Assembly (NCBI GenBank): GCA_950295325.1
Contig: OX485806.1
Span: forward strand, 8,804,001 to 8,868,000
Source of the DNA: Polytrichum commune
Lineage: Eukaryota; Streptophyta; Polytrichopsida; Polytrichales; Polytrichaceae
DNA length: 64,000 nt
Direction of reading: 5' to 3'
Part shown: positions 14,907 to 64,000 of the stretch, one piece after another
How the letters are laid out: every line of letters begins with the position of its first letter
Numbering within the stretch: the stretch's first letter is position 1
Notes under the pieces: model-generated
Database searches by the model: none
What the model saw: the letters and a program-made list of their open reading frames with translations, nothing else
What the model was told of the DNA's origin: nothing
Translations under genes and position numbers: made by a program

Positions 14907-14915
14907 GTATTTTTG

Positions 14916-32435: not shown

Positions 32436-32594
32436 ATGGCGAGCCAGAATGAGAAGGTAGCCATTGGGCTGGGCTTCGTGGGGACTTTGTTCACTCTTCT
32501 CGCCTACAACCAGACATTCATGACCACCACGCAAACCATTGTGACCGGCTTTGTGATCATGTTCGTGGCCTTGGGTGTTAAGGAATTGAACTAA
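32436..32594 (+). CDS. 52-residue hydrophobic small protein (unit B)
   Basis: It has the same start, length and stop as 10882-11040. The only visible protein difference is Ile for Leu in the second hydrophobic segment. Conservation of an uninterrupted frame in both units, while neighbouring non-coding DNA has indels, is mild support that it is or recently was a gene. The function is unknown to me. Confidence 0.55.
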   Translation: MASQNEKVAIGLGFVGTLFTLLAYNQTFMTTTQTIVTGFVIMFVALGVKELN

Positions 32595-33088
32595 GATGCT
32601 GCCTCCGGACGAAGCACCAGATGGCAGGTCTGAATCGGCCTTGTCTGGGAGATTCACATCTCTCTTTTAGAAAATTCCTGTGGAAAGGACCTCAAATAAA
32701 GAAGGATCTGTGACCTATGTTTCAATGAGGGTTAACCCCACTGTTGTAATTTGCCTTCCAAGTTTGCAGATGGTTGTGATAAATTTAGTACTCGTTGAGG
32801 GTTCACGCCGTGATATTAGAGGAGAATACTCGATTGTGGAGAGCTGCAGAAAAATCTCAGTATGTGTGCTGGAACATTTTCGACAGATTGCTTAGGAAAT
32901 TCTCTAGTTTGCTCTAAGGCTGCATCTTTCAAGCCACTCCTGAAATGTGGAGATTTAACATGTAGTGTTTCGGAAGTTGGAGATTGTAGAAACAAATTTT
33001 GGTGACAGGCAAATCTGTGGCTCTCATCAAATCTTTGACAGTCTGAAATAAGAGACACATTTTATTTGCAGTTATTTAGTGTGTGAAG

Positions 33089-34771: not shown

Positions 34772-35042
34772 ACAGATATAGTGATGTTAGATGCATTGCA
34801 GAGTACTGAGTTCCTGTAGAATGTCCTTCTACATCTTGAATGTGCAGTGTTAATGATACGAATGCTATATATTATTGTCAATCAGAAATAGTTCGCACGG
34901 CAACATCTTTCTATCTAGGATTGGGTCGCTGTTTGATTTCGATACCAGTGTAGAACTGGGATCGTCTTTTTATGATACCGTTTGGGTATCTATAACAAGG
35001 ATTTCACATTTTTGGGTACCAGTAGGGTATGGGTATTAGACA
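34772..35042 (+). other. Kinase 3' flank (unit B)
   Basis: It is nearly identical to 13166-13437. It probably contains the 3' UTR. No clear poly-A signal was chosen. Confidence 0.5.
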
Positions 35043-35051
35043 GTATTTTTG

Positions 35052-36604
35052 GGCCTGGGATTCGTGGCACTCATGTATTTTCATTAGTGTAAGTTCATTC
35101 ATCTTTGCGGATGAGATGAACCACTTTAGACACTACCTTACATCTTCAGCTCCTTGTCTCAAGGGTTTTAAAAAAACACCAAGTTTTAGTAGTTCTAAAT
35201 AATCCCAATCTAATCTAATACTTAAGGCAATAATATAAAGGGTGTTAGACATTTAAAAACAAATGCCTCATATAGAAGCAAGTGTGTGCATCATGCGTTG
35301 CCAATCTATCATTACTAGTCTGGTTATTTTAAAGAAATTAATATGGGCGGACGTTAAATACCCCCTCACGAACTTTCAGGGGTGTTAGACCGGGTTGGGG
35401 CAACCCTCTAAACAAATTTTTGAACCCAACTGAAAATTGTTGCCCATCCCGCCTAATTTGGAAAAAAAACCTTGCCCTTGCATTCTTGAAGGCCGCTTGA
35501 CTACAAATCCCATATTGAATGCACTTCACCTGCAAGGTCTAAAATCCAATATATATGTGTGCACTTCCAATTAGTAAATAAGCAATTGATTGGGATTTCA
35601 TTCCGGAAGTGAAACCATCAACCAAGCACGTAATTAACTTGGAGGTGAAAAACATTACAAAATCCTCATTAATATTGAGGTTATAATTTTGTGATTTACC
35701 ATTTAAAATTATCCTTGTTATTCTAATGATAGATTAGTACAAGTGTTCATAAGATGACCAAAATGAAACAATGAAGATAAAATATAAAACATATAACAAA
35801 AAAATTATATAGAAATCAATTTTATTTTTTAGATAATATAACATGAGGTATAAATAAATGATATGTTATTTGAAATTAGATTTGTGGGAGAATGTTATGG
35901 ATGGGGTATACTCAAAAAATCTCAAGTTTTGATTATAGGCTATCTAAATTATTGTAATATTTTATCCTCATCATATATTGTATAATCTTTAAAATGACAT
36001 GGTGTACATTATTTACTTTAATTAATTTTCATATTATTATTATTATTATTATTATTATTGAATTGATTTGTGAGTTCACCAATCTAGATAGATAGAAACT
36101 CCGGTCCCTATTTAAAGGGGCCGGCGTGAATGAAGTGTCCGTTCGTATTGTCAAATGACCCGTTCACCAATCTACCATAAGAAGATATATATTTTTTTGA
36201 CATATTACAAATGTTTGAGCAATCACACCCGTGCAATATAAATGAATTATGAACGAAAAAAATGTCTATGACAACACGTCATAATTATATGTTGCACACG
36301 TTGATATCTTGCGATATTTATCAAAATAACCATGTGGAATTCAAATTCACATCATGGCCTTGGAAACAATTCATGGGAGGTTAGAAAATAGGCTTAGAGC
36401 ATCCAAGGCCACATCATTGCCCCTTGCCAACAAATTGATATTTACAAAATAGTTAGTAGTTCACAATAGCTATAAATGAGAAAATAGGTCTTACATGCCA
36501 ACTCGGAGGTGTTTCACTAAAGTCGGCTCCATCCGAGCTTCTTGATGGACTCATCCGATTTTTGTTACCAGATGACTTTACTTGAGTGCCACGAATCCCC
36601 AGCC
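35052..36604. mobile_element. Mutator-like non-autonomous element (unit B)
   Basis: It is orthologous to 13447-14906. The left target copy GTATTTTTG (35043-35051) is present. The right one is missing because a deletion of about 520 bp begins right at the element end. It is 93 bp longer, mostly owing to the nested 76-bp stub and its duplicated target (36086-36173) and an expanded (TTA)n tract. Confidence 0.8.
36086..36161 (-). mobile_element. 76-bp retroposed LINE 3'-end stub
   Basis: Unit A has the empty site (14460-14480). In B the 12-bp target GTTCACCAATCT is duplicated at 36074-36085 and 36162-36173. The insert, read on the minus strand, ends CGCCGGCCCC...GGGACCGGAG followed by TTTCTATCTATCT, matching the 3' terminus of the large LINE (52658-52704). 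It is best read as an extreme 5'-truncated insertion of that family or of a SINE sharing its tail. Confidence 0.9.
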
Positions 36605-37029
36605 GATTAGACTTTGCAATACTTTGTAGATAGTTGATATCCTGTGATGATTGAATATTTGTAGAGTGTACAGTTCTGAGAATCTGACTATGGAGTTTCT
36701 TTGAAGGATTGAGGAGTTTGTTCTTATATGTGATAAATTTGCAAGCGCATGATAAGTGTTTAATCTCTCAATCTTTTTGATCTCCTTAGGGCACATTACA
36801 ATTGTTGTTGATACCTTGCATTATGCAACCATTCAAAACTTTCATCTAATCCTGACTTTATTCGCATTTTGTTGATTTTGTTGATTTTTATTGATTGATC
36901 GATTCTCAAATCTAAACAAGATCTTTGTAGACTGACACTCTTGAATTTTAGCTTGATGTTAACGTCATTGGTGGCTATTGATCAGGTGATAAGTCCAAGT
37001 TGGGCAAAGTAGGTGCTCCTACTTTTCAG

Positions 37030-39062
37030 ATGGAAGGTGCTAAGGTAAGCCGCTGTTTAGTTTAAGATCGACGTTTGTGTTCACTAGATATGGCAGAACA
37101 AGGGGTTCTTAATCTACAAACATGTTTTTTCAACATTGTATTTGTTTGCAAGTCAAGCATCTGAGTCATATTATAGGAGCTCATGTTCTTTGGCATTTGT
37201 TGATACTAATGAACTTACGTAGCTTAATCCTTCAAGAGGTGAAGTATAAGAATATACATGTTCAATGTGGGGTCTATATGTTAGCGATTCTCATGTTTTC
37301 TCTACTAGAAGGGAGTGCACATTATCAGCAATTTGGTTCATCACTGGTTGCATAATAGTAGTACATCATTTTTTGTATTTTGTGTTAATTGTGTGTTAGT
37401 GTCACCTGCCCTAGGGGGCATTCACGGTTGGGGTACTACTTTTGGATGTCTAATGGAAAAAGGACTTTTTTAGATAACTTCACATGCTTGGTATGCTTAG
37501 ATTTGTATTGTGAAGCATATTTTGGATCATACCTACAATTCATACTCCATATTGAGTACACCGACAAAGTTAATTTAGAAGGAATAGGGTCATCTAAGAT
37601 ATCATTTTGATTCCTTAAAGGACATTTGGGAGTGTTGTCTTAATTGTTCACCTTAGGATCAAGGAATGAAAAGGACAACAAGAATTAATCGAAACGATCC
37701 CAATTTTTTTCCTCACAATCATCGTTCAAGTGTGTACCAACAGAACCAAAAATGTATTGAATACCAATTGCCCAACTTTACATGTGGCACCAAACATGGC
37801 CAAAAATACATATAATCACGGCCACACCTAAAAGGAACGTCTAGTATTAGAATTGGACAAAAACAATTATATGAATGGACACATGACACTTATACCAAGG
37901 TACCAAGATGCAAAACATGAAATAATTGACCACCAATGCACACCTAAATAACAAAAAATGCCATTGATGTGGCCCAAACAAGTCATTTGACCCCTTTTCA
38001 AGTTTTATGACTTATCTACTTATTTCATAGGGAATTTCTCTATTATTGGTGATTATTTAATAAGAAATAATATCTTTCTTGATATAGCCTATGAACTATC
38101 TACTTATTTATTTAAATTTTATTGATCAAATAATAGTAAATCATGATAAACACCGAAATCCACTAGTCCTTAAGTCCTTAAGTCCTTTGTCCCAAAAGTA
38201 GTACCTCAACCGTGAATGCCCCCCTAGTAAAAACCATACCTTAGGTTACACTGATGGCCAACAGCTTGACCATTAGTGTAACCTTGTGACACTTGGCATT
38301 AGCGCGCTTACTAATATCATGGCATTAGGATACTCAATAATATTATGAGGTCTATGCCTAGGTTACACAAGGAAACACATAACACTTGTCATCAGTATGA
38401 TTTCTTGCATATCAAAATGTAAAAATTTCATGTCAGGCACTCCGAAACACCCTGAATATTTATGGACTTCAATAAGTTACTAGCCGACTTCTCCTAGGAC
38501 GTGAAACACATGATCAGAACAAGATGATCGAGGCTCAAGTCGCTTTTTGCTTATAATTTCTGGACCTCATTTGAATATGATATTCATTATCATAGTGAAG
38601 ATTCTTGTGCTCCTTAAATGGTCTTATAGGTCCCCCCCCAATGTACCATAGAATGTATGGTAGGAGGCTACGTGTAAGAAAAAAAGCCTTACAGATGGTT
38701 CCACTTGAGTGCAACAACAAGAGTCCTCCTTTTGGTGTGCGTTGAATTTGGATATTAATAAACTTTTGTTTGTTTTGCAGATTGTGTTCAAGAGCCCTAG
38801 TGAGTTTCTTATGCAGATTGAAGGATGGTTTGGCATAACATCTCAACTCGTAGCTGAATCCCATGATGGTGGTACAAATCCAATAATTTGCCTCAAGTCT
38901 TTAACATTTCGAACAAACCGTAAAACATATGGTCCATATGGTACTAATAGTGCAGATGATACACAGTTCAAGAGTGACACTGGTAGAATATTGGGATTTT
39001 ATGGCAAAAGTGGATGGGCCATTGATTCACTTGGTGTATTTATGTTTGTTAGTGAGAGCTGA
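37030..39062 (+). pseudogene. Jacalin-related lectin, unit B, exon 2 deleted
   Basis: Exon 1 (37030-37044, MEGAK, donor GTAAGC) and exon 3 (38781-39062) match unit A, and exon 3 is fully open with GWAID at the GxxxD site. The 183-nt central exon with the WGGEGG sheet is gone. A 2.7-kb stretch equal to A 16490-19214 is missing, joined at about 38479 with ACTAG microhomology. Direct splicing of exon 1 to 3 stays in phase 0 but would give only 98 residues, less than a jacalin domain. Confidence 0.85.
37414..38223. mobile_element. PIF/Harbinger-like MITE in lectin pseudogene
   Basis: This 810-bp insert is bounded by inverted GGGGGCATTCACGGTTG ends and a CTA duplication (37411-37413 and 38224-38226). 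Unit A has the empty site (CCCTAGTAAAA near 16235). It has no ORF. The 3-bp duplication and G-rich termini favour Harbinger, with moderate certainty. Confidence 0.75.
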
Positions 39063-46856: not shown

Positions 46857-47559
46857 GAACTTGAGTGTTACAAATTGGGGGAAACAAGGAAGTGTAGCAG
46901 CCGAGTAAAGGAGCTGCGACGTAAGAACAAGAAAACTGCGGCGTGCAAAAACAGGAGTTGTGACTCCCAAGAGAAGCTCTGTAACAAACTGTTGAAGACA
47001 AAGGAGGATTACCCCGAACCAGGTGAAAATTCCGCCAACACCGCGAGTAAAATCGGTTGCAATAGCTTAGGAGATTCAAACCCAGCAAGGAGCTGAGACG
47101 AGGAGCTACAACAGAGGTGCAGACATCACCGAAATTGCTGAAGAAGGGAACTCAGAACTAGACAACCCAAAGAAAGGAGCTGTGAGGATCGGCGCAGCAC
47201 GGAGACAAGCATTACCGACTAAAAGCAACTGTTGTAGAGAATTGGCTGCAGCCAATAAGCTGCTTCAACCAAAAGGAGACGGTGTTACAGCCAAAGGAGG
47301 CGACTCAACATCAGAAAATAAGAGAGCCGCGTTGATGAACGCACAAGCACTACTAGCAAAAAAACTAACTACTGGAGCCGCAAAAGAACTGCTGCAGTTG
47401 TATTAACAATTACTGCAGCCGAAGAAGCCCCTGGTCTGATACATCTTGGAGAAGCCCCTGGTTCATCTTCGAAGGAGCTGCTGGAGCACAGAGCAGGGAG
47501 CTGCTGGAGGTTGGAGCTGCTGGAATTGAGCGAAAGGAGCACCCAACAAAACACCAAAC

Positions 47560-50500
47560 ATGGCATCGCCTTCCACATTCCGACCCATCTTGGGAGATGA
47601 TGACAACATGGAGGTAGACACACCCACACAAAACCTCATGCGGCTCTTAGCGGAGAAGGCAAAGGAGAATCAAGCTGCGAAGGAAATAGGCACCAAGAGG
47701 ACCCGGGAGAAGACAACACCGAACAAATCTCTACACCAAACCCCACAACGACGCCCACAAGTCACACATGTAAATTCTATTTTCCCGGAACAAAGGTTCC
47801 GTCAAAATTTTTGGTATGGTTTCACTAACATGGAGAAATTGGCTATGGAAGAGGGGTTGGAAGAGCTCTTCGATGGTGAATCCATCGAAGATAGGGTACT
47901 TAGGGGTGTACCAAGGAAGGAAACGGAAGAAATGGAGGGGGTCGCAATATCCTTCCCAAGGATACCCCAAATCTATTACCCAGGTAAGAGAGAGGATGGT
48001 GTCCTTGGATAACACCTCAACCTAACACAAATTCCATATGATATCCCAATCGATCCCAATACATGTCTCTCTTTGGACTTCCATGTTGCTATTGAATTTC
48101 AATTACCCAACACCCCTCTCCTCCATAACCATGTGAAAGAACTAGTAAGGAAAAGACTTGAGTTGATGCAAATACCACTTGGCACTAACCTTATCGAGCC
48201 CATATCTATCATGTGCATGAGTGTTAAGAGAGGTGGGGAGAAAGGAGTTTGGGCGGGAATTGCCAAACTCCACCTTCTCCACCCCAAAATTGATGGGGTG
48301 GCCTTGTTGAAAGGACTTAGACCATTCATTCTACAATTGGACCCCAAATCAACCCAAGGTACTCTTGGAAAGGTATGTAAGACTTACCACTCCATAGCTA
48401 GGAACAACAACCTTTCAATCAAAATCACTAGTGAAACTTTGATTGATGTCTCTTCACACATGCTCTTCAAAGATGTTGTAGAGAATAGTTTTAGGAGAGG
48501 TTATGAATTTGAGATTGTAGAGGTGCAAAAGAGCACCTCCAACAACCATGCTTACATTGTTGCACCAACCCCCTCACAAGCCAAGAAAATTCAAGAACTC
48601 CAAGTTGCAACACACCATGAAATTTTGGAAGGACAAGTGAAGAAAGGGCCTTCTCTCACCTTGGAGCAAAAACAAAGGAAAGAAGCTCTAATTCTCACCT
48701 TCTATAATCTTCCCATCTTGATGAGCATAGATGACACATCTTTTGAAATTTGCAAGATAATTGGAACCAAGAATGTTGTCTCCATTTGGTTCCATAAGCA
48801 AGATGGAATTAGACACAATGGTAGTGCAAATGTAAAATGCCTCAACCCCTTTGTATACAAAAAGTTTGTTGGAAACGAGGAAAAAATTGGTGTTTATCAT
48901 ATGGAAATCACTCCACACCGTAGAAGTCTTGATGGTATTGACAAACCTTCCAAAGATTTGTTGGTCAAGTTTGGATTTGAATATACTAACACTTGCTTGG
49001 TGAACACCATTGAAGCAATCCAAAACCAAAACCAAGATGAGAAGAATGCCACCAAAAGCGAAGTTTTTACCATCATGAAGGAGGCCATTGAAGAATGTAA
49101 CAAGAAACTCAAGCTTGAACTACACGAAGAGATGAAGGTCCTGAAGGATGACATAGTCAAAGAGGCCCACAACTATGTAGATGACATCAACGAAAAATTG
49201 AAGAAGCAAATGTTGGACATCCAAAGCACATTGTGGTACAATTTTTTGATCTCAGAATAGTCATTTTAGAATTTTGATAGGATGTGAATTCATAGTGTCA
49301 CTCAAAATGTGAAATGGACACTAAAGTAAGTCATTAGTGACCAATTATCCGAAATGAGCTAAGTGTGAGACATTTAGTTCATATGAAACAGTTTCCAAGA
49401 GGAAGAGTCTTTTGGGCAGGGCAATAGACATGTGACCAAGTCGAAGAGCCTTATGAAATCTGGCCCCAAGAGACAAGGAAGCTAGTTCAGGGGATATAGA
49501 AGAGAAGAGAGAAAGTAGAAAGTAGTTCCTCTCGAGAAGAGAGTCTCCTTTGTCTCGTAGTTTTGAGTGATTCCAGTTTGGGTGTGAAGCCCTTTTTGAA
49601 TGTACATTTTTACCCTACATAATATCATAAGCGTGAAGCTATATTATTACTTGTGTGTGTGAGGATTAAATATGTTGTGTTGGTGCTGGTCGTGAATCGT
49701 TTACATTAAAATTGTACTTTCCTGGTTCGGGAAGAATCCAGATTGAATTTGTGATACCTTATTCCTGTGAAGGGAGTGAGTCTTGATGTGTGGTTGTTTC
49801 TCTCAAGGGAATTGAGAGGAATTGCTTGTGGGAATGTTGAGTCTCTTCTGAGAAGGAAGAGATCCATCCGGGTTCATTGAAGTGAATGGAATTCCATGAA
49901 TTGTCCTGAAAGCCTCTAGTTGTAATAAGTCGTGTTGTGAATGTATCTAAGTACGAGGAAGTGCTTTAACAATGTAATCCGGTGAAAGGAGTTTGTTTGA
50001 GAAGATACACGGATTGTGTCTTGAATCCTGTCAAAGGAAATTGGGATAGTTTGTAAGTGTCCCTCTGTCTGGTGCATAGAATGTCAGAGGGAGTTGCTGT
50101 CACCGTGCTACTGCAGTTGATGTTGCAACATATTCGTAGGATTCAGAAGTGTGAACACCTACTTTAGTTTCAATTGTCCACACATTGAAGTGGTCTTGCA
50201 GAATAAGTCTGAGAGAACCTCGGATATAGAATTCTAATATATGTTTGAGTTTGAGTATGATGGTGCAGTGAATTTCTCTTGTGAAAGGAGTGAAGTAACT
50301 ACCCTTAATCTTATGAGTATGGTGAGAAGTAATGTCGAGTAGTGTGTCGTCTCCCTTGGTAATGAAGTGAATGAAGCTTGTAGGAGTGACACTACTTTTC
50401 TTCGGGTGTGTTCGGCCATGTAACTTGGCTGTGGCAAACTTGAGATACCTGATGTGAAGTCAGAGTAAATGCTTCAGCCCCCACTTCTCACATAATTTAC

Positions 50501-52134
50501 AATTTCAATAAGTGCGCACGTTGAGATATAAATCCTGCGAAAGGAAGATTGTACCTTTCGGAATGCCCAGTCGAGTAGTTCAAGAGGGAGCATCCTAACC
50601 AGTTCGCTGTGAATTTTAATTCCCGAGAAGAGATTGAGATCATGGAAATAATGATCGGAGAGAACCAGTAGGTAGTTACAAATGATTCAGTGAGTTTGGG
50701 AAATAACAAGATGAAGTTCAAGACTGCAGAAGAATCACCGGACGCTTCAGAGGGATTCACAAAATACACCTCAATTCGATCAAGAAAAACCGAGGGAGGT
50801 TATTCTGAACTGGTGGAACTTGCAGATTCTCGGATCTCAATCGATTGTGACCAAAAATTTCCTCAATTATGGAGTGAGGTTGATCGACACAGCATCCCAA
50901 TGGTTTGGGTGGAGTAGGCAGTTAAACTGGGCCTGATGAAATTGTGGAAGCCATAAATTGAAGTAGTGCGACCAGATCGTGCGAGACCTCGAGGAAAAGA
51001 GGAGCTCTAAGCTATGGAGTTTGCAGGGCTCCGAAGTTAATCACAAAATTTATGAAAGGCGAGAGAGATCGATCTGCGAATTCTTGGCCGACGTCGACAT
51101 GTCTGAACGTGAAAGGAGCAGGCGCGGTTGCGACGCGAAGGTACGTTTAGCCTATTAACCCATATGGTTTGGGTGAGGCTAACAGGGCAAGCTTAAAAGG
51201 AGGAGTGGCCAGCATCACATTCAAGAACTTGACGCTGACTTGGTTACTGGTTACTGGTGACTGGCTACTTGATACTGGTTACTAAGACTATGGCCCTCTC
51301 TATGAGACGTGACTTGACACTGGTTACTTGTGACTGTTACTGGTGACTAGACTATGGCCGTGCTGTGCAGACTATGGTCCTACCGATTAGACTCTTACGG
51401 TCCCGGTCCGGTTCAGTTCGCTTCGCTTAGATTCGTTCCCTAGGTTCCCGTCACTCGTAATTAGACTTTTGCACGTTATAACAATTAATTCTAATATGTT
51501 AAAACTCCATTTGATTTTGATAAGTCTAATATGACTCACCAGTACTTCGACTTTGAGATATTGAAGCAAATCAATTAATTCATTTGATCAAGAGGTAGGA
51601 GAGTCATGTGTGTAGGTGATGATTCCTAACCTGTGGTATGGCCTATAGTCCTTGGTTACTAATCTGAAGAGACTATGGTCACTTCAAAGAGTTTGTGCCT
51701 TGGGTTTCTGAGACTATGGCGTACTCAAATGTCTATGGCTGAGCTGTGACTCCCTGAATTGCAAAACACATTATAAAAGTGATGTTACTGACGAGAGTGG
51801 GTTGTGAGGGAGTGACTGATCAATTGCATGTACGGCTGTGAGTGACCCTCAACCTTAATTAAATCAATTCTAAAACTCACCCTAGAAGTCTTCTTCCCTG
51901 TGTTTGTTGTCCTAAATACATCCTAATTCTCTTGTAATCTATCAATTAACTCAATGGTGATCCCTAGATGCAACACCTGACACTCATTTGGTCTTCCTTG
52001 TGTGGTTTTCTTAATTGGAACCCAATCTAAAATCCTATCTACACACATTAACCATGGCACTTACCGGGATGCAACAAATTACTGGGATGGTAAACCCAAA
52101 TCTTATGATAAAAGACCTGCCAAATGTGGATTGA
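47560..52134 (+). pseudogene. LINE ORF1 protein, left copy, interrupted
   Basis: Starting at MASPSTFRPILGDD, one frame runs to 49231, breaks for a 2.8-kb LTR, and resumes at 52049 to a TGA at 52134. Without the LTR it would be 585 residues, with one internal TAA (48010-48012). The N terminus is Lys/Arg-rich (nucleic-acid binding likely). A central part with LTFYNLP, VVSIWFHKQDG and YHMEITPHRRSLDG has the spacing of an RRM-like fold. The C-terminal 120 residues (FTIMKEAIEECNKKLKLELH and onward) form a strong coiled coil. This RRM plus coiled coil plan resembles LINE ORF1p RNA chaperones, with domain order differing from mammalian L1. The assignment is inference. Confidence 0.7.
49232..52043. 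mobile_element. 2.8-kb solo LTR or LTR-only element
   Basis: The insert begins TGTGGTACAA and ends CTATCTACA, with a perfect 5-bp target duplication CACAT (49227-49231 and 52044-52048). The right LINE copy has the uninterrupted site (62890-62894). TG...CA ends and 5-bp duplications define an LTR retroelement insertion. I see no gag/pol, internal LTR pair or primer site, so a solo LTR of unusual length (2812 bp) is the simplest reading. Orientation is unknown. Confidence 0.8.
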
Positions 52135-52657
52135 CCACAAATCGCCGGGTAAAACAAAAGTATTTACTTCAATACTATCTTAGATACATACACGTATTTA
52201 GGCATAGTATTAAACATAGTATTACACATAGTATTACACATAGTATTACACATAGTATTCTATATAGTATTACACATAGAATAAATACTAGAATAAATAC
52301 TAGATACCATCGTATTACTCATAGTATTCCACAATGTCCAAAATACCATACGAAATACAAGTTATCTACTTTATATGTACAAAAATACTATACTCAAACA
52401 AAATACAAATACCATACAATACACAAAATTAATCCAAAATACACATACTTCCTATTCAAACAAATAAGAAGCATAACATCCGCCAAAACTAACCCTTTCA
52501 CTATAACCAAATACATACTCATAAAAAACCAAAGAATAAATAAGACTAAAGCCCGACCACACCCAAGCATCATATACACACCTACAACAAAGTCCGTACT
52601 CTATAATAAAAGATACCATCATACTAGTCATGATATCCTACGACGTCCAAAATACCA
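52135..52657 (+). pseudogene. LINE ORF2 start, left copy, truncated
   Basis: It is open in the ORF2 frame, which overlaps the ORF1 end. It encodes a low-complexity segment beginning LTTNRRVKQKYLLQYY and matching the right copy. It has a single TQTKYK-type unit where the right copy has about thirteen, and extra copies of a short ATAGTATTACAC unit at 52205-52260. It ends at the junction with the right copy's tail. Confidence 0.7.
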
Positions 52658-52704
52658 GATAGATAGATAGAAACTCCGGTCCCTTTTAGGGGCCGGCGTG
52701 AATA
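52658..52704 (-). repeat. LINE 3' terminus: hairpin plus (TATC)n tail
   Basis: The sense strand reads ATTCACGCCGGCCCC, loop TAAAA, GGGACCGGAG, then TTTCTATCTATCTATC. The stem pairs CCGG/CCGG and CCC/GGG. The stem and tail recur at 36086-36161 and, with another loop, at 26087-26117. It is probably the RT recognition structure for target-primed reverse transcription. Confidence 0.8.
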
Positions 52705-52888
52705 GAGTGTCCGTTCGTAATGCCAACAACTCGATGCCCACAGGACATGGGGAAGCTGGGACAAAACTACTCTCCTCTTTCGAGGATGGACACTATAGTA
52801 ACCGAGAAACAAATAACATGGGCCGATTATGGCCCACGGAGGTGCATGCCTTTTAAGGATAATTAGTGTTTTTGTAATGAGAGTGAAT

Positions 52889-53066
52889 GCCAAGTCATGA
52901 TTCCTCGGTTGGTTGTGGGAGGATGTTTGAGTTAAGACGTTCCGGGTTCGATTCCAGTTGGGTCCGTATGATCGTCTAAAATGTAACACATGACTTGGTG
53001 CGCAAGTGAATAAAAGGCAGGAAATTTGTACCAACCAACCGGCACCAGTCCCTCATTCTGAGCTGT
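52889..53066 (+). mobile_element. tRNA-derived SINE, copy 2, in LINE 3' UTR
   Basis: It carries a perfect B box GGTTCGATTCC (52945-52955) and an A-box-like TTCCTCGGTTGG. The same interleaved inverted pairs as copy 1 are present: CCAAGTCATG with CATGACTTGG (52989-52998), and GGTTGGTTG with CCAACCAACC (53031-53040). It lies antisense to the LINE, between ORF2 and the LINE 3' hairpin. Whether it is a nested insertion or part of the LINE UTR is open. Confidence 0.65.
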
Positions 53067-53179
53067 AAGTAGATACTAGGTATTATATAAGATATTATAC
53101 AAGTTTTTGGGTTTTATGGAGGGTCTAAGTTTTGGGGGAGCGGTTGGTGGTTTTCAAGTCTCCTCTTATGTAGGAGGAT

Positions 53180-53800
53180 GGACATGGCATATTGTATTGC
53201 AATGGTATTAATGTTTTTAAAGGTATTTTTGATGGTAACCATGGGTATTTTGAGATTTTCTTCTAGTATTTTCATGGATGGGATGTGGGCCGTAGCTCGG
53301 GCCCCGGCTGTGATGACAATAAGTGGTTCAATTTTCCATCCTCTGGAGGCGATACTATCAATCAGTGGTTTGTATTTGTTGTTTTTTGCTTCAATAGTTT
53401 CTGGGGAAAATCTGTCGTTACAATATGTGAATTCAATAAGTTGTATGGTGAGGTTAGGGTCAACGTCGATGGGAGGGTCATTTTGATATGGTAATCCTTT
53501 GACGCATAGTATGTCAGGGCGAAACCTTGCATTGCTTTGTGTGTTACATGCGCAGGGGAGTAGCCAATTGGGGACAGTATTTTCTTGGGGATTATTATTG
53601 AAGGTACCGGCATTCATGAGGGTAAAACATCGGGATTTTTCGGACGAGATTAGGAGCTTCCTAATTTCTCCAACTGCTTTGTTATGTCTTTTAATTCGTA
53701 GTGAGTGTATATGTTGTTGGTTACATTTCAGTAGTACATGTAGCCAAGTGTCTGGATCGTTTGAATTGCATATGGGACACGTGATAGAGGGGTACCTCTG
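53180..53800 (-). other. CCHC motif and restriction-like endonuclease domain
   Basis: The zinc motif CPIC...WLHVLLKC (near 53790-53735) is followed by KRHNKAV (near 53690), RPDILCV (near 53515), IQLIEFTYCND (near 53430) and AKNNKYKPL (near 53375). This reproduces the R2-type order: RHN, then PD, then an acidic residue, then K with KY. The catalytic D, E and K are all present. In R2 elements this domain nicks the target. It lies at the extreme C terminus, as in R2 and Dualen. Confidence 0.8.
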
Positions 53801-54149
53801 GTGACCGAAAAACATTTGTTTTCTAGCATTACCCATGTATGTTCATGTACGGAATTTAATAAGGCATGATTTTTGTTTGTCTGTGATTAAGGGATTTGTC
53901 CAGAATTCGTTGGACAGTTCTTTGTCAATGTCTATATTTTCTGTCCATTTACACGTGTTGGGGGTTTGTGTGGCCATGACTGCTATATTGGTTTCCTTGT
54001 CATATTTTTTAATTTGTTTTTCTAAGAATCTTACTGGACCTTTGTCTGGGACTTCTTCCATTGAGGCCCAGACGTCCTTTTGATAATAGTATGGGGTGGC
54101 GTGGGCATGTTCGTATGGGTGTATGGCGATTCTGTGTTCTAATTCTAAC

Positions 54150-54650
54150 CCGTCTTTTGCTAGTTTATCCGCTTTTTCATTACCGTCAATGTTGACGTGT
54201 GCTCTGACTTTGTATAGTGTGATAGGCTGTGTACGGTCTTGGAGGATTTTTACCATGGAGTTGAGTGTGGTTTGGTCTGGGTGACTATTATGGAGAGTGG
54301 GGTGTTTAATTTGTGTGTTGAGTAGATATAGTACGTTTAGACTGTCTGTGAATATAAATGCGGGTTCATTAGGGAATTGTCTATTGATGATTCTTAGTGT
54401 TTTGTATATAGCCATCATTTCTGCGCGTAGTATGTTTTGATGCCCATGGAGTCTTTTGGCGATATTTAAGCCTTTGGGGCTATAGATACCGTATCCAGCT
54501 CTTTCTCTTCTCCATATTCCAGGGGCAATTTCTTTGGGTTTTATAAAGGATCCATCTGTGTAGTAGCTAAATTGGGGGTGGAATTTTAGTGGTAAGTTGG
54601 TTTGGTAGTTTGGGAGTTGTGGGGTGGGGTTATTATTGTATAGGGGTGTG
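54150..54650 (-). other. RNase H domain
   Basis: It shows YYTDGSF (first Asp), RAEMMAIYKTL (Glu), IFTDSLNVLYL (second Asp) and KVRAHVNIDGNEKADKLA (His and last Asp) in the canonical order and spacing of RNase HI. All catalytic residues are retained. In LINEs it removes RNA from the RNA-DNA hybrid. Confidence 0.9.
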
Positions 54651-54829
54651 TTTGGGTAGTTTGATTTAGCCCATTTTTTACTAGGGTTAACGGTGATGTT
54701 CGGAGGGGTGGGTGGTGCAATTTGAGTGTGGCTTTGTAATATTTGGAGGTTATTTGCTGTGTCGTGTATTAGCTTCATTTGTTCGTAGGTACCTATGTTA
54801 TTATTTTGGTGATGGATACAGAATATTTA

Positions 54830-55260
54830 CATGGTAGATGGTTCTTTCCTTGTAGTATTGAGTTCGGGGGGTATTGTTGGTTCTTCGTATGTGATTGTGT
54901 CAGCAGCAAAATGGGCAATGACATGTGTGTCTGGGAATGGGCCTGTGTGTGGGTTCGAGTTTTGGTACCAGTCAGTGTCTGGGGATATAATTATAGTGAT
55001 TGTGTAAGGGTCATTTTGGGCCGCCATGCGTGCCCAGTGAATGGCTTGTTGTAGGTTTGTTGAGGTGTGAGGATGTGCGTATCCAATTCCTTGCCATTTA
55101 TAGTCAAACACTTTTCCTAAGGATCCAAATATTATGTCTCGTGAAAAGGGTGAGTAGAATTGGGTGAATTGTGTTGGACATGTAACCGGGGATGAAAAGT
55201 ATGAGTGGGTAATATTGAATGTTATAATTAGTAGATCCAGTATTTGAGTTGGTATTGTAT
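54830..55260 (-). other. Unassigned domain with methyltransferase-like motif
   Basis: Between the RT thumb and RNase H lies a conserved-looking block with FYSPFSRDIIFGSLGKVF, then WQGIGYAHPH, AIHWARMAA and IIISPDTDW. The SPF followed later by a hydrophobic strand ending in D-x-D-W recalls N6-adenine methyltransferases of the Dam/PCIF1 type, whose motif IV is (N/D/S)PP(F/Y/W). The usual Asn/Asp is replaced by Tyr, so activity is doubtful. Dualen is reported to carry a cysteine protease, which I could not recognise here; this block is the candidate place to test both ideas. Confidence 0.35.
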
Positions 55261-57039
55261 ATTGGGCTCTTTTGAGTGGGTCGTTCTTTGGGATACGGTA
55301 TTTGTATCTTTGGTATAGCCAGACAATTTCAGTTTCGAATGATTGGGTAGGTGGTTCTAGACCATGTGTGGTATTTTTTGCCAATTGGTATTGTTTCCAT
55401 AGCCATGTTAGTCTAGCTTTCGGGATGGTGATGAGATGCCTTCCATTGTCTTCGTATATGTGGGCGACATCGAATTGTGTTTGGATAGTATCAGAATTTG
55501 TTTCAATGTCGTTTTCTGGGTTGCATTCACTAATAGAGATATGTGCTAGCGGAATTATTGTGGATGGTGTGACGTATCTTGTGTCTCGGTGTTGTTCCGT
55601 GGTGAAGTAAGCGTTGATGATGTTTGAAAAATGATTGTGTTGTCTTTCTGTGTAATATTGGTTAAGCAAGTTTGTGTTGTGGTTGCATATGTTGGCTTCA
55701 TAGTAGGGGTATAGGTCCCTTTGGGTTCGCCATTTATTATATGTGTTGTTATTTGTTGTGGTCCATTGACACATATATGACGTAACTGTTCTTTTTATTC
55801 CATTGTTGTCGTTAGATTGTTTTTGTTTGTGATCGAGTATTTTGTGTATGGGAAATTGTCGGGGGTCTTTAAGCATGTTGTTGGGGGGAGGAGGTAGATG
55901 GGGGATGGGGGGGTTAGGGAGGTGTACGGGGGCGGTCGGTGTGTGAGGTAGGATGTTGTGATTTCTTATTATATATTTGTTTTTGAGGGATCTTGGTGGG
56001 TGGTGTTGTTGGCAGGGTAGGGGGCATTGATTGCAGGGGGGGTGGCAGAATAGTTCATTAGCTATGTTAAGTGCGCTTTGGATAAGTTTAGAAGGAGTGG
56101 AGTGGTAGATTTTGAATTCGTCCTTGTTCATCAGAGTGGTACCATTAGGCAGGGTAATTTGGTCTAGTGTGGTTATATTATGTATAAGTAATTTGTATAG
56201 TAGTTTAAGTGAGGTGTTGGGGTTTAGGCCATGTAGCATTTGTGCTTCTTGCATCCATGCCGTTTCAAGTGAGGATGGGGTTAGTAGAAAGTTATTTATT
56301 GTGCTTTTTAGATGGACTCCGGCTTTATGTTTTAGCAGGAACAGTGTTCTAGTGATGGGTGATCTAACATAGTGGTGGTATTTAATGCGAGTGATTTCTT
56401 GAGAGCCCCCATGTGTGGCGAGTATGAATTGTACTAGACCAGTATATATTCTCCCAATTCTCCCTTTGTCATTGAGGGCATTTTGTAATTGTTCTCCAAT
56501 GCACCTTAGATAGGCATTTTGTAATGAAAATGCTTCAATTCCAAATAGGTTGTGGGGGAGTTGCGTGACAATATTAGATGTGCGTTTAGGTATTCCGCAT
56601 ATTGTTTTATGGAGTGCGATGATTTTTTTGTCTAGTTTTTTTCATGGCTGGTATGGAGTATGGTACTGCATAAAAACTATATGCTATTCCAGCACGTATG
56701 ACTGTGTTTGCCATGTTGATTTTTTGTTTCATAGTAGTTGGGCAAGCTACGAGGGCTTGACATTGTTGGATTACTTTAGCTGTGGTGGTATTTATTTGTG
56801 TTTTCCATTTGAGTGATGGTGCAAGATTTATTCCTAGGTATGTATAGGGTTCATGTTGGTTTAGGACTGTTATAGGTTGGTTTTTATAGTTTATGTTAGT
56901 GGATTGGATTAGGGCCTTGAAGGTTGTGGGGTTAAGTTTAGATTTGTTTGGGCATCCAGTCACTGCACATTTTGGTATACCTAGGTCCATTCCTGCCCAT
57001 TCTCAAAATTTGTCTAGTTTATTTAATTGTGTTTGTAAT

Positions 57040-57830
57040 GCTTCTAGTTTGTTGGCGATTGCTGCAAGATCGTCTGCATATGCTGCTGATGAGATTTTCA
57101 CTCTGGACTTTCCGAAGGTATATCCATTATTTCCTTGTTACAGCCATCTAAGTAGGGGTTCCAAGAATATGATAAATAGATATGGGCTAAGGGTATCGCC
57201 TTGTATTGTACCTCTTTGGATGTGGATTGGTAGAGTTTTTCCAAAGTGTTCGCCGGTAAATATGGTTGATGATTGTGAGTATATGTTTCCTATGAGGTTT
57301 ATGGAGTCATTGGGATAACTCATGTCTTTCATTATGACTAATAGTCTGGCGTGGTCAATGGAGCCAAAGGCGTTTTTGAAGTCAATGTAAAGAATGTATA
57401 TATCTTGGTTTGTGAGTCTGGCGTCTTCAAGCGCTGCAATTAGTATTTGTATTTGTCTGGAGGTGTTTCTTTCTGCTCTGAACCCTTCTTGGCTATCGTG
57501 TAGTATTTGGTATCTTTCTCCGTATGTTGATAGGATAGAGGTTAATGTGCTTGTATATAATTTATATATAGTGTTAGCTAGTGTAATAGGTCTGTGATTT
57601 GTTAGTTGTGATGGGTTACCTTTTTTATATAGTAAAACTATTAGGCTAGTTTTCCATGATGCTGGGATTTGTTTTTGTTTATAGCAGTGTTTAAAAAATA
57701 GAAACAATATTTTGTGAAAGCGTGGAGGCATATTTTTTAGAATTGAGTTGGGGATTTTGTCTGGACCTGGGACTTTATTATTACTTAGGTTTTTAAGACA
57801 GAAGTCGTATGTTTCTTGATCAAAGTATGT
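57040..57830 (-). other. Reverse transcriptase domain
   Basis: Motifs in order: NKVPGPDKIPNSIL, LTNHRPITLANTIYKL, YIDFKNAFGSIDH (motif A, about 57351-57389), RGTIQGDTLSPYLF (motif B, about 57179-57218) and AYADDL (motif C, YADD at 57069-57080). A TAA between motifs B and C and a TGA after C kill this copy. The thumb continues with KTICGIPKRTSN and LFGIEAFSLQNAYLR. Confidence 0.95.
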
Positions 57831-58729
57831 GTACAAGGGGATTTGGGGTTCTCCTCGTCTGTCGATTATGTATCCATCTAAGTCGTGCCAAGGGTATTGC
57901 CTTACTCCACATGTACAGTGAATTGGATGTGTATTTTGATGGTGGCATGTGGGGACTGTTGGGCGGTTACTGATGGATTGTTGTGCGTAAATCTCTGAAA
58001 CAATGTCTTCAGGGTTGGTTAATATGTTGTTTTGTCTATCAATGATGGAGTCAAGAGGTGAGGTTTCAGTGTTCTTGAAGACTTTCCGATTTATTTTCTT
58101 GGGGTTTTTTTCATACATTTGACGGTATTTTGATACGGCTTTTAGGATGCAGTCTCTGGTGTATTTTGTGGTAATTTTCCTGGCTTCTTTATTTGCCGTT
58201 TTTGCGATAGTTGCTATGGTGTCAATCCATTCGACATTAGATGTTGTTGTAGTAGGTGGGTGCAGAATGTTGACGTGTTGGTGGTTTCGGATATCGTTTA
58301 GGATGGGGTGTACTTGCCAGCTTGGGTCATTTTGTACAATATAAATGGTTTTCCTGATGAGGTGATATGTGTTGAGGTGTCTTTTCCATTCTCTAGCTAG
58401 TTTGCGTGGTAAAAAACCACCTTGTTGTGATGTTATGTTTGTGAGGTTGGGTAGAGGGTCTGCTTTGCAGGTTTTTTCAATTGTTTCTGAGATTTTGTTT
58501 ATAATGTATTCTAATGATATGCAGGCATTTTGCCATTGATCAGGTGTTAAGTGTTGGTGGTCTTCTAATAGTGTGGTAAGTTCTTTAAGTTGGGTGGAGT
58601 TTTCTTCGAAGAATGTTATGTTAAATTTTTCTAGGTTTTCCGGTGGTATCGGGTTCAGTATTCTAGTTGGTGTGGTGTTTGTAGAGGGCGGAGGTCTAGC
58701 TATAAGTGTGTTGTGTGGGATGTGTAATG

Positions 58730-59500
58730 TGACTGGGTAGTGATCTAAATTTAGATTCATGTTTGTATTTGTAGTGGAGGTAAATTTGCTGTTGTCAAGG
58801 GAGTGAATGTAGAAACCATCTATTAGGCTTGTTGATGTGTAGTTGTAGCCACCTTGTCTGGAGATACTAGTGTTGGTAGTGATATATTCTAAGTCGAGAG
58901 ATGTGGTAAAAATTTTCCATTGGAAGTCCTCTTCTTGTGGGGGGGTAGTAGTGTTGTTATTTTGTCTGCCTCTAAGTGCAATATCTCTGTTAAAGTCACC
59001 GCACAGTGTGTATATGTGATTGGGGTGTGTAGTGATTTATTTAGTGATTTCATTCTTAAGGTGTGGGATAAGACATGTGTCTTCTAGGTGCGTAGGCATA
59101 TACATGTGTATAATTAGCCAAGGTGTTAGTGGATGGTTGTTTATTTTTATTACTTGTAGGTACGGGGAGATGTTTGCTGGTGTGGGAATTTTGGTGACAT
59201 TTCCCGGAAATGCATATTTGTGATGGATAAGTGTGAGTAGGCCACCTCTTCCGGGGGTATAGGGCATTCTTTGTTGGATGCACCTCGTGAGTGCGTGTGT
59301 GTTGTTGAAAGTGAGTTTGAATTCCGGAAATAAGTTTTGTATATATTTTGTAGATTTATTTGCAGTGAGTTTGGTTTCTTGGATATGAATGATTGCTGTG
59401 TTATTTAGAGAGTTGTTGATTAAGTCTTGTAAGTTTGGTAGTGATGTGTTGAGCGATGACGCATTCCAAGTTATTATGCTTGTTTCGTGCTCGGTATTAA
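58730..59500 (-). other. AP-type endonuclease domain
   Basis: SIITWNASSL, IIHIQETKL (catalytic Glu), GRGGLLTLIHHKY, then after the TAA at 59037 CGDFNRD and finally NLDHYPVTL. This is the exonuclease III/APE order found in L1, I and Dualen elements. The domain is complete apart from the one stop. Confidence 0.9.
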
Positions 59501-60128
59501 AGTTTATTCTTGTGATTGGTGTGGGAGCGGCCAGGAGTGGGGGTGGGTGTGAGTATTCGCTTATATTTTCTAAACATCTAAGTGTTTCGGTTATTAACTG
59601 GTTTGGAAGGAAGGGGAATTCTTTCTTGAGGGTGATTGGTGTGGGCGTGGTGGCTTGGTTGTGGATGAAATCGTATATTTTGGTGTGTATTGAGTTTTGG
59701 GGGAGTATTATATGTTGATTGTTTTCTATGAATATTGTGTAGGGGTGCGGTGTCAGTATGTGTCTTTCGGGGGGGTTGGTGAGGTTAGCTAGTCTAATAA
59801 TTAATGTGTTGGTCCATATGTCGTTAAAGTGGTGGTTTTGGGGTTGGGCTAGTATGCTATTGCATGTGTCTATTGATGGGTTGATGGTGATGACTATAGC
59901 ATATAGCATATGGGTTGGTGGTGATTGCCTTTGTGTTTGGATGTATTGGTGTAAATGTGGGTGGGTAATTATTGCTTGATGGTGTAGAGGGTGTGTATTC
60001 CTTAGTATGGGAGCAAATGTATTTGCTATGTGTTGGTATTCAGGTTGTAGTTTGATAGTGTTTGGAATGAAGTATATCTTGGCTCTCTTTTTGTGTGTAG
60101 CAGGATGCGTATGTAGGATGTTAGGCAT

Positions 60129-60173
60129 TGGTCCGGGGTTGGATTCTATGTCTCCGCATTTTAGTAATTCTAG
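60129..60173 (-). other. 2A-like ribosome-skipping motif
   Basis: The minus strand encodes LELLKCGDIESNPGP, followed by MPN. It satisfies the 2A consensus D(V/I)ExNPGP, with the expected Leu/Gly-rich preceding residues (LELLKCG). By analogy with 2A sequences in trypanosome and sea urchin non-LTR elements, ribosomes would release the upstream leader at Gly and restart at Pro, separating the repeat-rich leader from the catalytic polyprotein. Confidence 0.9.
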
Positions 60174-60428
60174 TTTGTTAATGAAGTAGTATCCGTGGAA
60201 GTGAATTATTTTGGGGTTTTTCGTGTTTGTTTTTAGATATATTGTGATTGTACATTTGGTTGTGGAAAATAGGTTAGGTATAGCGGGTATGGTTTTTTCT
60301 ATTTGTATGGGTGAGAAGTGTGGTTTCGTATTATTTGTAGATTTTTGGCTTGTTATTGAGTTAGGTTTCCAATTATTTATGAAGTGGTATTTGTTATTCT
60401 TTGTGTGGCGAGGCCGATAGGCCGAGGC

Positions 60429-61871
60429 CATTGTCTTTTTTGGGTGGGGTTGGTATTTTATGTGAGGGCTTAATAGGTGTTTGATTTTGTTATGGTGTTC
60501 GAAGCTAGGGTAGGGTTTCTTTTTGGAGCATTTGTTTTGTAGGTGTGCTTTGGCATTTGTTGAGAGGTGAGGTTGGTATGTTGAGGTTGCTTTGTTTTTC
60601 GGGTTGAATTTTTGTTTAATATGTATATTTAGTTTTGGGTAGGGGTGGTTTTTGGGGAATGGTTTGTGGTTTTGGTGGGTGTTGTATTTAGTTGTTAGGT
60701 GTGTATGGGAGTTGTCTTGGAGTACGTGTTTTGTAGTTGTGCTTGGTTTCCATTTGGTTGTGATAGGGTTTGGTTTGTGGTGAAGATGGTAGGTCAAGGT
60801 CATTTCGTAGTTTTGACATAATTTATTTTTCAAGTGGAGGTTGGGTTTGGAGCTAGGGTATGGTGTGCTTTTTGAGCTTAGGTTGGGATGTATTTTAGAT
60901 AGTGGATGGGGCTCTAGGTTAGGTTGGTTTTCTTGCTTTGGGTGGGTATTATGTTTTGGGCATTGTTGTGGATGCACTTTGTATTTTAGGTAGAGTTTAA
61001 CTTTTGAGTGTATTCTATATTTCGGATGAAGTTTATTATTTGGATGAGAGATGTGTCTTAGATGGGGTCTATGTTTTGGATGAGGTATGTATTGTGAGCG
61101 AAGTTGGGGGTGTTTGTGGTTTGGGGATAATTTGGTTTTTGGATGAAGTTTAAGTTTTAGGTGGACTTTATAATTTGGATGTAGCTTGTTTCTTGGATGG
61201 AGATTGTGCTTTAAGTGGGGACTATATCTTATGTGAGGGTAGTATATTGGGTGGGGCCGTGGTGGTTTTTGTTTTGGGTGGGTATGTTGTTGTGGGGGGG
61301 ATGTTATATTTCTTAGTTGATTGGGTGGAGGGTAATTGATTAGGTTAGGGTAGGTTCCTAGTTCATAATGTGGGTTATGTTTTGGATGGGATATGTATTT
61401 TGGGTAGTTTATGTATTTTGGATGGGATCTGTGTCTTGGATGAAGGAGGTGCCTTGGATGTGGTATGAATTTTGAGTATTTAGCGGAGTTCGGGTTGTGT
61501 ATTATGTTATTTGATTGTTTAGGTGTGAGGGAGGGATTTAGTTTTGAGTACATCCTTTGTTTAGGATGCAACTTATATTTTACATGTGGTTTGGAAGTAA
61601 GATGAAGTTTGTTTGTTGGTATGGTGAAGGTATCTTTGGTTTGGATGCATGATGAAGGTATCTTTGGGTTGTTCTTGTTTGATTTGTGGTATTTGTTTGG
61701 TGTGGATTTTGTTATAGGGGGGGTGATGGGTGGGGTGGGTATAATGTTTTTTAGTTGTTTAGGTATGGATTGTAATTTTGTATGTTTGCTTGTAGTTAGG
61801 TTAGTTCCCCAATATTGTGTAAAGCTATTTTTGTATTTAGTTTTATGGCGAGGCCGGTAGGCCGAGGCCAT
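60429..61871 (-). repeat. Duplicated MASAYRPRH leader, 1440 bp apart
   Basis: Two copies of an ATG-led segment encoding MASAYRPRH (ATG at 61871-61869 and 60431-60429) stand exactly 480 codons apart, each within AAAATGGCC or a similar context. Similar Lys/Asn/Pro-rich sequence follows both. Only the second copy leads into the 2A motif, 101 codons later. The DNA has imperfect inverted GGCC repeats. Confidence 0.75.
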
Positions 61872-62200
61872 TTTATTTTTTGGGTATTTGTAATTTGAGT
61901 GGTAGTTTGGTGTTGAGAACGGTAGTTTATGAGGTATGGGTTGTGTTTTGTATGTTGGGTGGGGTTTGTATTTTTGGTGGAGTTTATATGTTTGGTGGGG
62001 ATTATATTTTGGGTGTAATATGTATTTTGTGTGGGGTTTGTATTTTGGGTGTGTATATTGTTTCGTTTGAGTTTTGTCTTTGTGCATGTGTAAAGTAAAG
62101 TGATTGTATTTATATTTCATATGGTATTTTGGCCGTCGTATGGTATCATGGCTAGTATGATGGTATCTTTTATTATACCGTACGGACTTTGTTGTAGGTG
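60440..62200 (-). repeat. Degenerate HPKY-type coding repeats
   Basis: The ORF2 leader is built of loosely periodic six-residue units such as SHPKYI, NYPKYI and KLHPKY. It is rich in His, Lys, Pro, Tyr, Thr and Asn, and almost free of Gly, Val, Ala, Asp and Glu. The sense strand is A/C-rich. No fold is recognised; it is basic and probably disordered. Confidence 0.75.
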
Positions 62201-62369
62201 TGTGTATGATGTTTGGGTGTGATCGGTTTTTAGTCACATTTATTCTTTGGTTTTTTATGATTATGTTTTTGGTTATAGTGAAAGGGTTAGTTGTGGCGGG
62301 TGTTATGCTTTTTATTTGTATGAGTAGGAAGTATGTGTATTTTGGATTAATTGTATGGTATTTGTATTT

Positions 62370-62620
62370 TGTTTGAGTATAGTGTTTTGTTTGGGTATGG
62401 TATTTTGCTTGAGTATAGCATTTTTCTTGAGCATGGCATTTTGCTTGAGTATGGTATTTTGTTTGAGTATGGTGTGTTGCTTGAGTATGGCATTTTGTTT
62501 GAGTATGGTATTTTGCTTGAGTACGGTATTTTGCTTGGGTATGATATTTTGCTTGAGTATAGTATTTTGCTTGAGTATGGCATTTTGCTTGAGTATGGAA
62601 TTTGTGTTTGTATAAAGTAG
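62370..62620 (-). repeat. 18-bp coding minisatellite (about 13 units)
   Basis: The plus strand repeats TATTTTGCTTGAGTATGG with small variations; on the minus strand this encodes (Y/C)HTQAK hexapeptides. The left LINE copy has a single unit at the same place (near 52385-52405), so the array expanded in this copy. Because the unit is a multiple of three, antisense frames are open too. Confidence 0.9.
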
Positions 62621-62803
62621 ATAACTTGTATTTCATATGGTATTTTGGACATTGTGGGATACTATGAGTAGTACGATGGTATCTAGTATTTATTCTAGGT
62701 GTAATAGTATATAGAATACTATGTGTAATACTATGTCTACATATGTGTATGTATCTAAGATAGTATTGAAGTAAATACTTTTGGTTTACCCGGCGATTTG
62801 TGG

Positions 62804-64000
62804 TCAATCCACATTTGGCAGGTCTTTAATCATAAGATTTGGGTTTACCAACCCAGTAATTTGTTGCATCCCGGTAAGTGCCATGGTTAATGTGCTTTGG
62901 ATGTCCAACATTTGCTTCTTCAATTTTTCGTTGATGTCATCTACATAGTTGTGGGCCTCTTTGACTATATCATCCTTCAAGACCTTCATCTCTTCGTGTA
63001 GTTCAAGCTTGAGTTTCTTGTTGCCTTCTTCAATGGCCTCCTTCATGATGGTAAAGACTTCGCTTTTGGTGGCATTCTTCTCCCCTTGGCTTTGGTTTTG
63101 GATTGCTTCAATGGTGTTCACCAAGCAAGTGTTAGTATCCTCAAATCCAAACTTGTTCAACAAATCTTTGGAGGATTTGTCAATACCATCAAGACTTCTA
63201 CGGTGTAGAGTGATTTTCACATGATAAACACCAATTTTTTCTTCTTTTCCTACAAACTTTTTGTATACAAAGGGGTTGAGGCATTCAACATTTGCACTAC
63301 CATTGTGTCTAATTCCATCTTGCTTATGGAACCAAATGGAGACAACATTCTTGGTTCCAATTATCTTGCAAATTTCAAAAGATGTGTCATCAATGCTCAT
63401 CAAGATGAGAAGGTTGTAGAGGGTGAGAGTTAGAGCTTCTTTCCTTTGTTTTTGCTCCAAGGTGAGAGAAGGCCCTTTCTTCACTTGTCCTTCCAAAATT
63501 TCATGGTGTATTGCAACTTGGAGTTCTTGAATTTTCTTGGCTTGTGCGGGGGTAGGTGCAACAATGTAAGCATGGTTGTTGGAGGTGCCCTTTTGCACCT
63601 CTACAATCTCAAATTCATAACCTCTTCTAAAACTATTCTCTAAAACATCTTTGAAGAGCATGTGTGAAGAGACATCAATCAAAGTTTCACTAGTGATTTT
63701 GATTGAAAGGTTGTTGTTCCTAGCTATGGAGTGGTAAGTCTTACATACCTTTCCAAGAGTACCTTGGGTTGATTTGGGGTCCAATTGTAGAATGAATGGT
63801 CTAAGTCCTTTCAACAAGGCCACACCATCAATTTCGGGGTGGAGAAGGTGGAGTTTGGCAATACCCGCCCAAACTCCTTTCTCCCCACCTCTCTTGACAC
63901 TCATGCACATGATAGATATGGGCTCAATAAGATTAGTGCCAAGTGGTATTTGCATCAACTCAAGTCTTTTCCTTACTAGTTCTTTCACATGGTTATGGAG
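62804..64000 (-). CDS. LINE ORF1 protein, right copy, N terminus off window
   Basis: It is open from the window edge to a TGA at 62804-62806, more than 395 residues, about 96% identical to the left copy by eye. The end (LTMALTGMQQITGL...KDLPNVD) is intact, unlike the LTR-interrupted left copy. RRM-like centre (LTLYNL, VVSIWFHKQDG, YHVKITLHRRSLDG) and coiled-coil tail are as described for 47560-52134. The stop overlaps the start of the ORF2 frame by about 20 nt, so ORF2 may be reached by frameshifting or reinitiation. No defect is visible in the window. Confidence 0.75.
   Translation of the reverse strand, partial: LHNHVKELVRKRLELMQIPLGTNLIEPISIMCMSVKRGGEKGVWAGIAKLHLLHPEIDGVALLKGLRPFILQLDPKSTQGTLGKVCKTYHSIARNNNLSIKITSETLIDVSSHMLFKDVLENSFRRGYEFEIVEVQKGTSNNHAYIVAPTPAQAKKIQELQVAIHHEILEGQVKKGPSLTLEQKQRKEALTLTLYNLLILMSIDDTSFEICKIIGTKNVVSIWFHKQDGIRHNGSANVECLNPFVYKKFVGKEEKIGVYHVKITLHRRSLDGIDKSSKDLLNKFGFEDTNTCLVNTIEAIQNQSQGEKNATKSEVFTIMKEAIEEGNKKLKLELHEEMKVLKDDIVKEAHNYVDDINEKLKKQMLDIQSTLTMALTGMQQITGLVNPNLMIKDLPNVD

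Follow-up and report, generated by a model that had tools for sequence, protein, structure and literature searches.

A dual-endonuclease LINE in Polytrichum commune

Whether Dualen/RandI-like long interspersed nuclear elements (LINEs) occur in land plants is the question raised by a 64,000-nt stretch of the Polytrichum commune assembly GCA_950295325.1 (contig OX485806.1, positions 8,804,001 to 8,868,000; hereafter the window). Excerpts of PMC3636483 and PMC4640811 describe Dualen/RandI by the joint presence of an AP-type endonuclease (APE) and a restriction-like endonuclease (RLE), an excerpt of a 2022 review gives land-plant LINEs as L1 and RTE only (PMC9033089), and an excerpt of PMC7466625 reports two complete LINEs in Physcomitrium, named LINE-1 and LINE-2. 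Among the titles listed for the open-licence literature, none concerned a Dualen of land plants or a LINE with a PCIF1-like domain. We conclude with high confidence that the element on the minus strand of the window, which has two open reading frames (ORF1 and ORF2), is a Dualen/RandI-like dual-endonuclease LINE, and we infer as parts of its function a StopGo event, a sharing of nicks between the endonucleases, and RNA binding by a CAPAM-fold domain.

The motifs on which the original prediction was based are present on the minus strand, namely SIITWNASSL, HIQETKL, CGDFN, and LDHYP of the APE, AAYADD of the reverse transcriptase (RT) and the acidic residues of RNase H (with Pfam matches to RVT_1 and RNase_H), and CPIC..H..C, RHN, RPD, E, and K..KY of the RLE. 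These exceed chance, because sister copies retain these residues (of 26 copies compared, 20 were taken from the match list for their long frames or lower identity, five were intact, and one was the window copy) and the RLE model matches R2. In the 408-Mb assembly (64 contigs), the RLE piece had at least 150 matches of 86%–100% identity (150 scored of 5,300 first-look candidates), and five of the 150 had an open single ORF2 of 2,625 (three copies), 2,663, or 2,924 codons. The prediction that all domains share one polyprotein holds for the ORF2 of the intact sisters (L009 to L013; order APE, RT, CAPAM-like domain, RNase H, RLE) and fails for the window copy (L001), whose ORF2 has five in-frame stops (two in the RT and one each in the APE, close to the end of the CAPAM-like part, and ahead of the RLE) and a frame change after the RT. 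Reading of these stops as a recoded codon was dropped, as sister copies are open without recoding. The near-identity of L010 and L011 (99.6% across 11.9 kb) and of L012 and L013 (99.8% in a 3.4-kb comparison) suggests recent spread in the genome.

When the RLE of an intact sister was modeled, R2 proteins were the only fold-search matches at E ≤ 0.001, far above all else, and the proposed R2-type nature of the C-terminal domain was thus borne out by structure prediction and fold search rather than HHpred. The APE lies N-terminal to the RT, has motifs conserved across copies, and passes the Pfam cut-off in the close relatives P0121 and P0148 (PF14529, with PF03372 too in P0148). Nei-Gojobori ratios of nonsynonymous to synonymous substitution (dN/dS) between intact L009 and L013 were 0.071 for the APE, 0.053 for the RT, 0.097 for the CAPAM-like domain, 0.049 for RNase H, and 0.101 for the RLE, compared with 0.378 for the linker, 0.552 for the ORF2 leader, and 0.097 for the 2A region (19 codons only); the pairs L009–L012 and L010–L013, with lineages shared between pairs, agreed. 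The five enzyme-related domains are therefore under purifying selection, which argues for functional retention of both endonucleases and the CAPAM-like domain.

In an RT tree of 46 rows (8 of the window's lineage, 22 algal-type, 3 R2, 12 I-type named from their Pfam domains, and 1 L1), the window's lineage was supported at 100/100 and its joint branch with the algal-type rows at 100/99. The named algal rows were Haematococcus lacustris and Parachlorella kessleri, and the rest were mostly metagenome proteins. The tree keeps the RT apart from both L1 and I, placement inside either of which had been set beforehand as grounds to abandon the prediction; the dual-endonuclease architecture and the branch with algal-type elements support the Dualen/RandI-like reading instead. 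As a side observation, P0030, from an archaeal metagenome-assembled genome labelled Candidatus Nitrosocosmicus, is a fragment of this LINE lineage and most likely contamination.

A CAPAM-like domain within ORF2

Between the RT and RNase H, the ORF unexpectedly matched PCIF1_WW (Pfam, 1.1e-11), and the predicted structure had the CAPAM fold in a fold search, with an alignment confined to residues 417–668 in the C-terminal part of that protein. The catalytic NPPF of CAPAM is not retained in the window's lineage, where its Asn is His in 26 of 27 rows (Phe in one). Among the genomic copies, 24 of 26 have His at this position and two have Tyr. An active cap-adenosine methyltransferase in this lineage too would agree with the fold and purifying selection, and with a motif of NPEY or NPEC in 6 of the 10 rows examined besides these (two read by eye), but the near-constant His and the restriction of the alignment to CAPAM residues 417–668 make such activity unlikely. 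The domain is instead predicted most likely to bind the element RNA, perhaps at its capped 5′ end, rather than to methylate it. The presence of such a fold in a LINE suggests a possible direct role of retrotransposons in handling mRNA caps.

A chromodomain between the RT and the CAPAM-like domain was also considered and dropped as a finding, and is retained as a lead only: Pfam Chromo matched two of the 15 slices at E ≤ 1, with 0.051 as the lowest value, the top four of five PDB profile matches at E ≤ 1 were chromodomains (E 0.39–0.85), and hhalign against an algal-type chromodomain gave no support (probability 0.9%). Separately, a chromodomain in P0171 (3.2e-11) and a PHD finger in P0173 (1.2e-7) lie downstream of the LINE RT in algal-type relatives, and some such LINEs may therefore read histone marks.

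A candidate 2A peptide and a fast-evolving leader

Upstream of the APE part, ORF2 carries the 2A/StopGo motif LLKCGDIESNPGP. Its upstream residues, LELLKCG, are similar to a class described in an excerpt of PMC12846837, which is rich in L, has Asp and Ser, and closes with (A/S/C)G. The 2A was readable in 18 of 26 copies (13 canonical, window copy included; four GDIKPNPGP; one NAGP), a count that includes near-identical and hence non-independent copies. A second family (L044, with an open ORF2 of 2,919 codons) has GDIETNPGP, and among 239 proteins checked, many of them fragments short of this region, the canonical motif was found in Haematococcus P0215 and metagenome P0149.

Biased composition could in principle yield such a motif without function, given an ORF rich in N and P and the loss of the Glu in an intact subfamily. 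We consider this decidedly improbable, since the expectation calculated from composition is ~3e-5 per protein, dN/dS is 0.10 versus 0.55 in the adjoining leader (for only 19 codons), and the motif stands at the same place in the second family and Haematococcus. Departures from the 2A rule do count against the overall reading: GDIKPNPGP defines one subfamily (L012, L013, L034, and L035, the first two intact), L030 has NAGP, and P0148 has GDIQPNPGP. The 2A of the GDIK subfamily is probably inactive, because Glu occurs almost exclusively at that place according to an excerpt of PMC12846837.

The original prediction of an unexpectedly long ORF2 leader proved correct, the leader being variable between copies and fast-evolving. 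The only BLASTP match between L044 and protein P0001 begins at residue 266 of the latter and has 64% identity, and forced global alignment gave 20%–50% identity per 20 residues in the leaders versus 80% just after the 2A; by BLASTP the leaders thus appear without detectable relation, which does not imply that they are unrelated. The window leader also repeats a segment, MASAYRPRH..., at 61846–61885 and 60406–60445, a sign of internal duplication. Upstream, the window ORF1 is 40% identical to that of L009 and 26% to that of L012/L013, and the scanned parts of the L009 and L013 ORF1 had no Pfam domain above cut-off. A common frameshift for ORF2 expression was dropped, as the ORF1/ORF2 frame relation varies by subfamily; the ORF2 AUG overlaps the ORF1 end in L013, and the first ORF2 AUG of L009 is at about residue 50.

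During translation of ORF2, StopGo at the 2A is predicted to release the fast-evolving leader, so that the enzyme chain would begin with Pro-Met-Pro-Asn. In target-primed reverse transcription, one endonuclease might then make the first nick and the other the second, ~12 bp off, and RNase H would remove the template. A broader proposal, which we offer tentatively and regard as doubtful, is that a cap-methyltransferase-fold module is carried by dual-endonuclease LINEs throughout the green plants. The module, catalytically plausible in algae and a pseudo-enzyme in the land-plant lineage, would recognize the cap at the 5′ end of the element RNA, thereby coupling cap recognition to full-length integration, and a naturally used 2A would free the enzyme chain. 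An excerpt of PMC12846837 reports that no natural StopGo was found in plant viruses, though StopGo functions in plant cells; a conserved 2A peptide would represent natural StopGo use in plants. Since this dual-endonuclease LINE is abundant and has several intact near-identical copies, the role of each endonuclease is testable.

Weighing the class assignment

Among solved structures, R2 proteins were the top phmmer matches of the RT (6.6e-30), and the RLE is likewise R2-like, as would be expected of an R2-group LINE of RLE-only ancestry that gained its APE separately and merely resembles Dualen. We judge this origin very unlikely: R2 elements have an RLE only, no APE, and an RT inside R2, whereas here an APE is present and the RT is separate from the three R2 rows, whose own branch has 100/98, and joins algal-type elements, some also with an APE. 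An L1 or I element that has one endonuclease only, its RLE being spurious, was dropped, since both the fold-search result for the RLE and the RT tree speak against it. The I-type rows grouped at 91/77 in that tree; phmmer against solved structures gave no L1 at E ≤ 1.

Several results weigh against the Dualen/RandI-like assignment. The link to Dualen follows from the dual-endonuclease architecture and algal-type relatives (Haematococcus, Parachlorella, Cymbomonas), with Haematococcus rows that have an APE and Josephin serving in place of C. reinhardtii Dualen. The algal-type rows form no supported group of their own (36/0), so that the place of the window's lineage among them is tentative, and the tree samples L1 by a single, long-branched row and contains no RTE or CR1. 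The APE of L009 matched PF14529 at E = 1.5e-4, below the Pfam cut-off. Algal-type P0199, with RT, RNase H, and RLE motif, had no PF12237 match, so the CAPAM-like domain is either not universal or has diverged. A cysteine protease is reportedly a component of Dualen as Kojima and Fujiwara described it in 2005, although we did not take it as a defining one. A Pfam scan that covered P0001, 561 of the 747 codons in the ORF1 frame of L009, and the final 325 codons of ORF1 in L013 gave no protease at E ≤ 1; Haematococcus P0195 has a Josephin domain (1.7e-11). Finally, for L010 and L013, searches for target-site duplications at the assumed ends returned 6-nt matches only.

Extent, insertion, and neighborhood

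The extent first proposed for the element, 53114 to 62807, was too narrow. A 12-bp target-site duplication, TGGTATTTTGGA, whose first T is possibly part of the 3′ tail, has its partner at ~66,488–66,499 (window scale), past the window edge, and places the 3′ end at 52,658 and the 5′ end at ~66,487; with the 5′ side ~2.5 kb beyond the edge, the element is ~13.8 kb long. Such duplications of 11–12 bp were found in three of five copies checked (window copy 12 bp, L011 12 bp, and L012 11 bp by eye). The 3′ ends of copies carry a short TATC repeat, past which the flanks of the window copy and of the seven sisters sharing its 3′ untranslated region (UTR) are unlike one another. A target preference was dropped, as the 3′ junctions of the window copy and of 11 sisters, 12 in all, had no common flank by eye. 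The window holds a broken copy lying antisense within another copy of the element, the latter with an unshared 2.8-kb stretch inside it (49,232–52,044).

Table 1. Features of the element and its host copy (window coordinates)
Feature	Position	Strand	Evidence
Second copy, opposite orientation, 5′ part, host of the inserted element	47559..52645	+	self-BLAST, nested layout
Target-site duplication at 3′ end, 12 bp, TGGTATTTTGGA	52646..52657	-	exact repeat on both sides
3′ UTR, ~456 nt, short TATC repeat tail at end	52658..53113	-	common to window copy and seven sisters
RLE (CCHC, RHN, RPD, E, K..KY) and ORF2 C-terminus	53117..53809	-	motifs
RNase H	54146..54568	-	Pfam 5e-14
CAPAM/PCIF1-like methyltransferase-fold domain; NPPF position HPHT in window copy	54770..55477	-	Pfam, fold
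Possible divergent chromodomain (weak)	55655..55861	-	Pfam Chromo, PDB profiles
RT (YADD), two stops in window copy	56751..57797	-	Pfam 4.3e-19, tree
APE, one stop in window copy	58731..59477	-	motifs; PF14529
Candidate 2A/StopGo peptide LLKCGDIESNPGP	60129..60167	-	fits (D/G/C/N)(V/I)ExNPGP
ORF2 leader, long, low-complexity, repeat-bearing	60168..62807	-	ORF; 18-bp tandem repeats
ORF1, 3′ part, continues past window	62804..64000	-	identity to sister ORF1s

Elsewhere in the window, 7400–16500 and 28600–38500 form a segmental duplication with kinase genes (pieces 92%–97% identical), and another repeated piece (19.7–20.6 and 38.6–39.6 kb) contains the exons for jacalin domains (9.1e-8, 5.6e-16, and 1.7e-17). 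A C-terminal integrase piece of Ty3/chromovirus type is found at 5373–5882 on the minus strand (SH3_Tf2-1 1.5e-20, weak Chromo 0.0055); together with the jacalin domains and kinase genes, it is compatible with a land-plant host. A short, weak RT similarity (3.7e-8) at 28221–28725 on the plus strand is probably another decayed LINE.

Comparison with known systems

With PCIF1/CAPAM, the cap-specific adenosine N6-methyltransferase (PDB 6irv–6is0), the element appears from modeling to share a fold, but here the domain is part of a LINE ORF2, the CAPAM N-terminal part is unmatched, and NPPF is replaced in the window's lineage, most often by HPHN. APE-type LINEs of animals bearing a 2A (Odon 2013, cited in excerpts of PMC4981915 and PMC12846837) likewise have a canonical D(V/I)ExNPGP in a LINE ORF, whereas the element here is a dual-endonuclease LINE of a plant genome. 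It shares with R2 (PDB 9nl3, 9nl2, 9dou, 8gh6) its RLE and RT matches, and differs in having an APE and RNase H, a separate RT branch, and no common target by eye. In 2A-bearing LINEs of animals, the 2A also precedes the APE. The likeness to Dualen/RandI of green algae comprises the APE, the PD-(D/E)XK-type RLE, the RT, and RNase H, an RT branch common to the window's lineage and algal-type elements, and a 3′ tail other than poly(A) in both (eight of eight green-algal RandI families have other repeats in the table of PMC3747384). The element is set apart from Dualen/RandI by its land-plant host, an ORF2 of >2,600 codons, the lack of a cysteine protease detectable by Pfam, and a CAPAM-like domain and 2A peptide that are absent from the descriptions in excerpts of PMC3636483 and PMC4640811.

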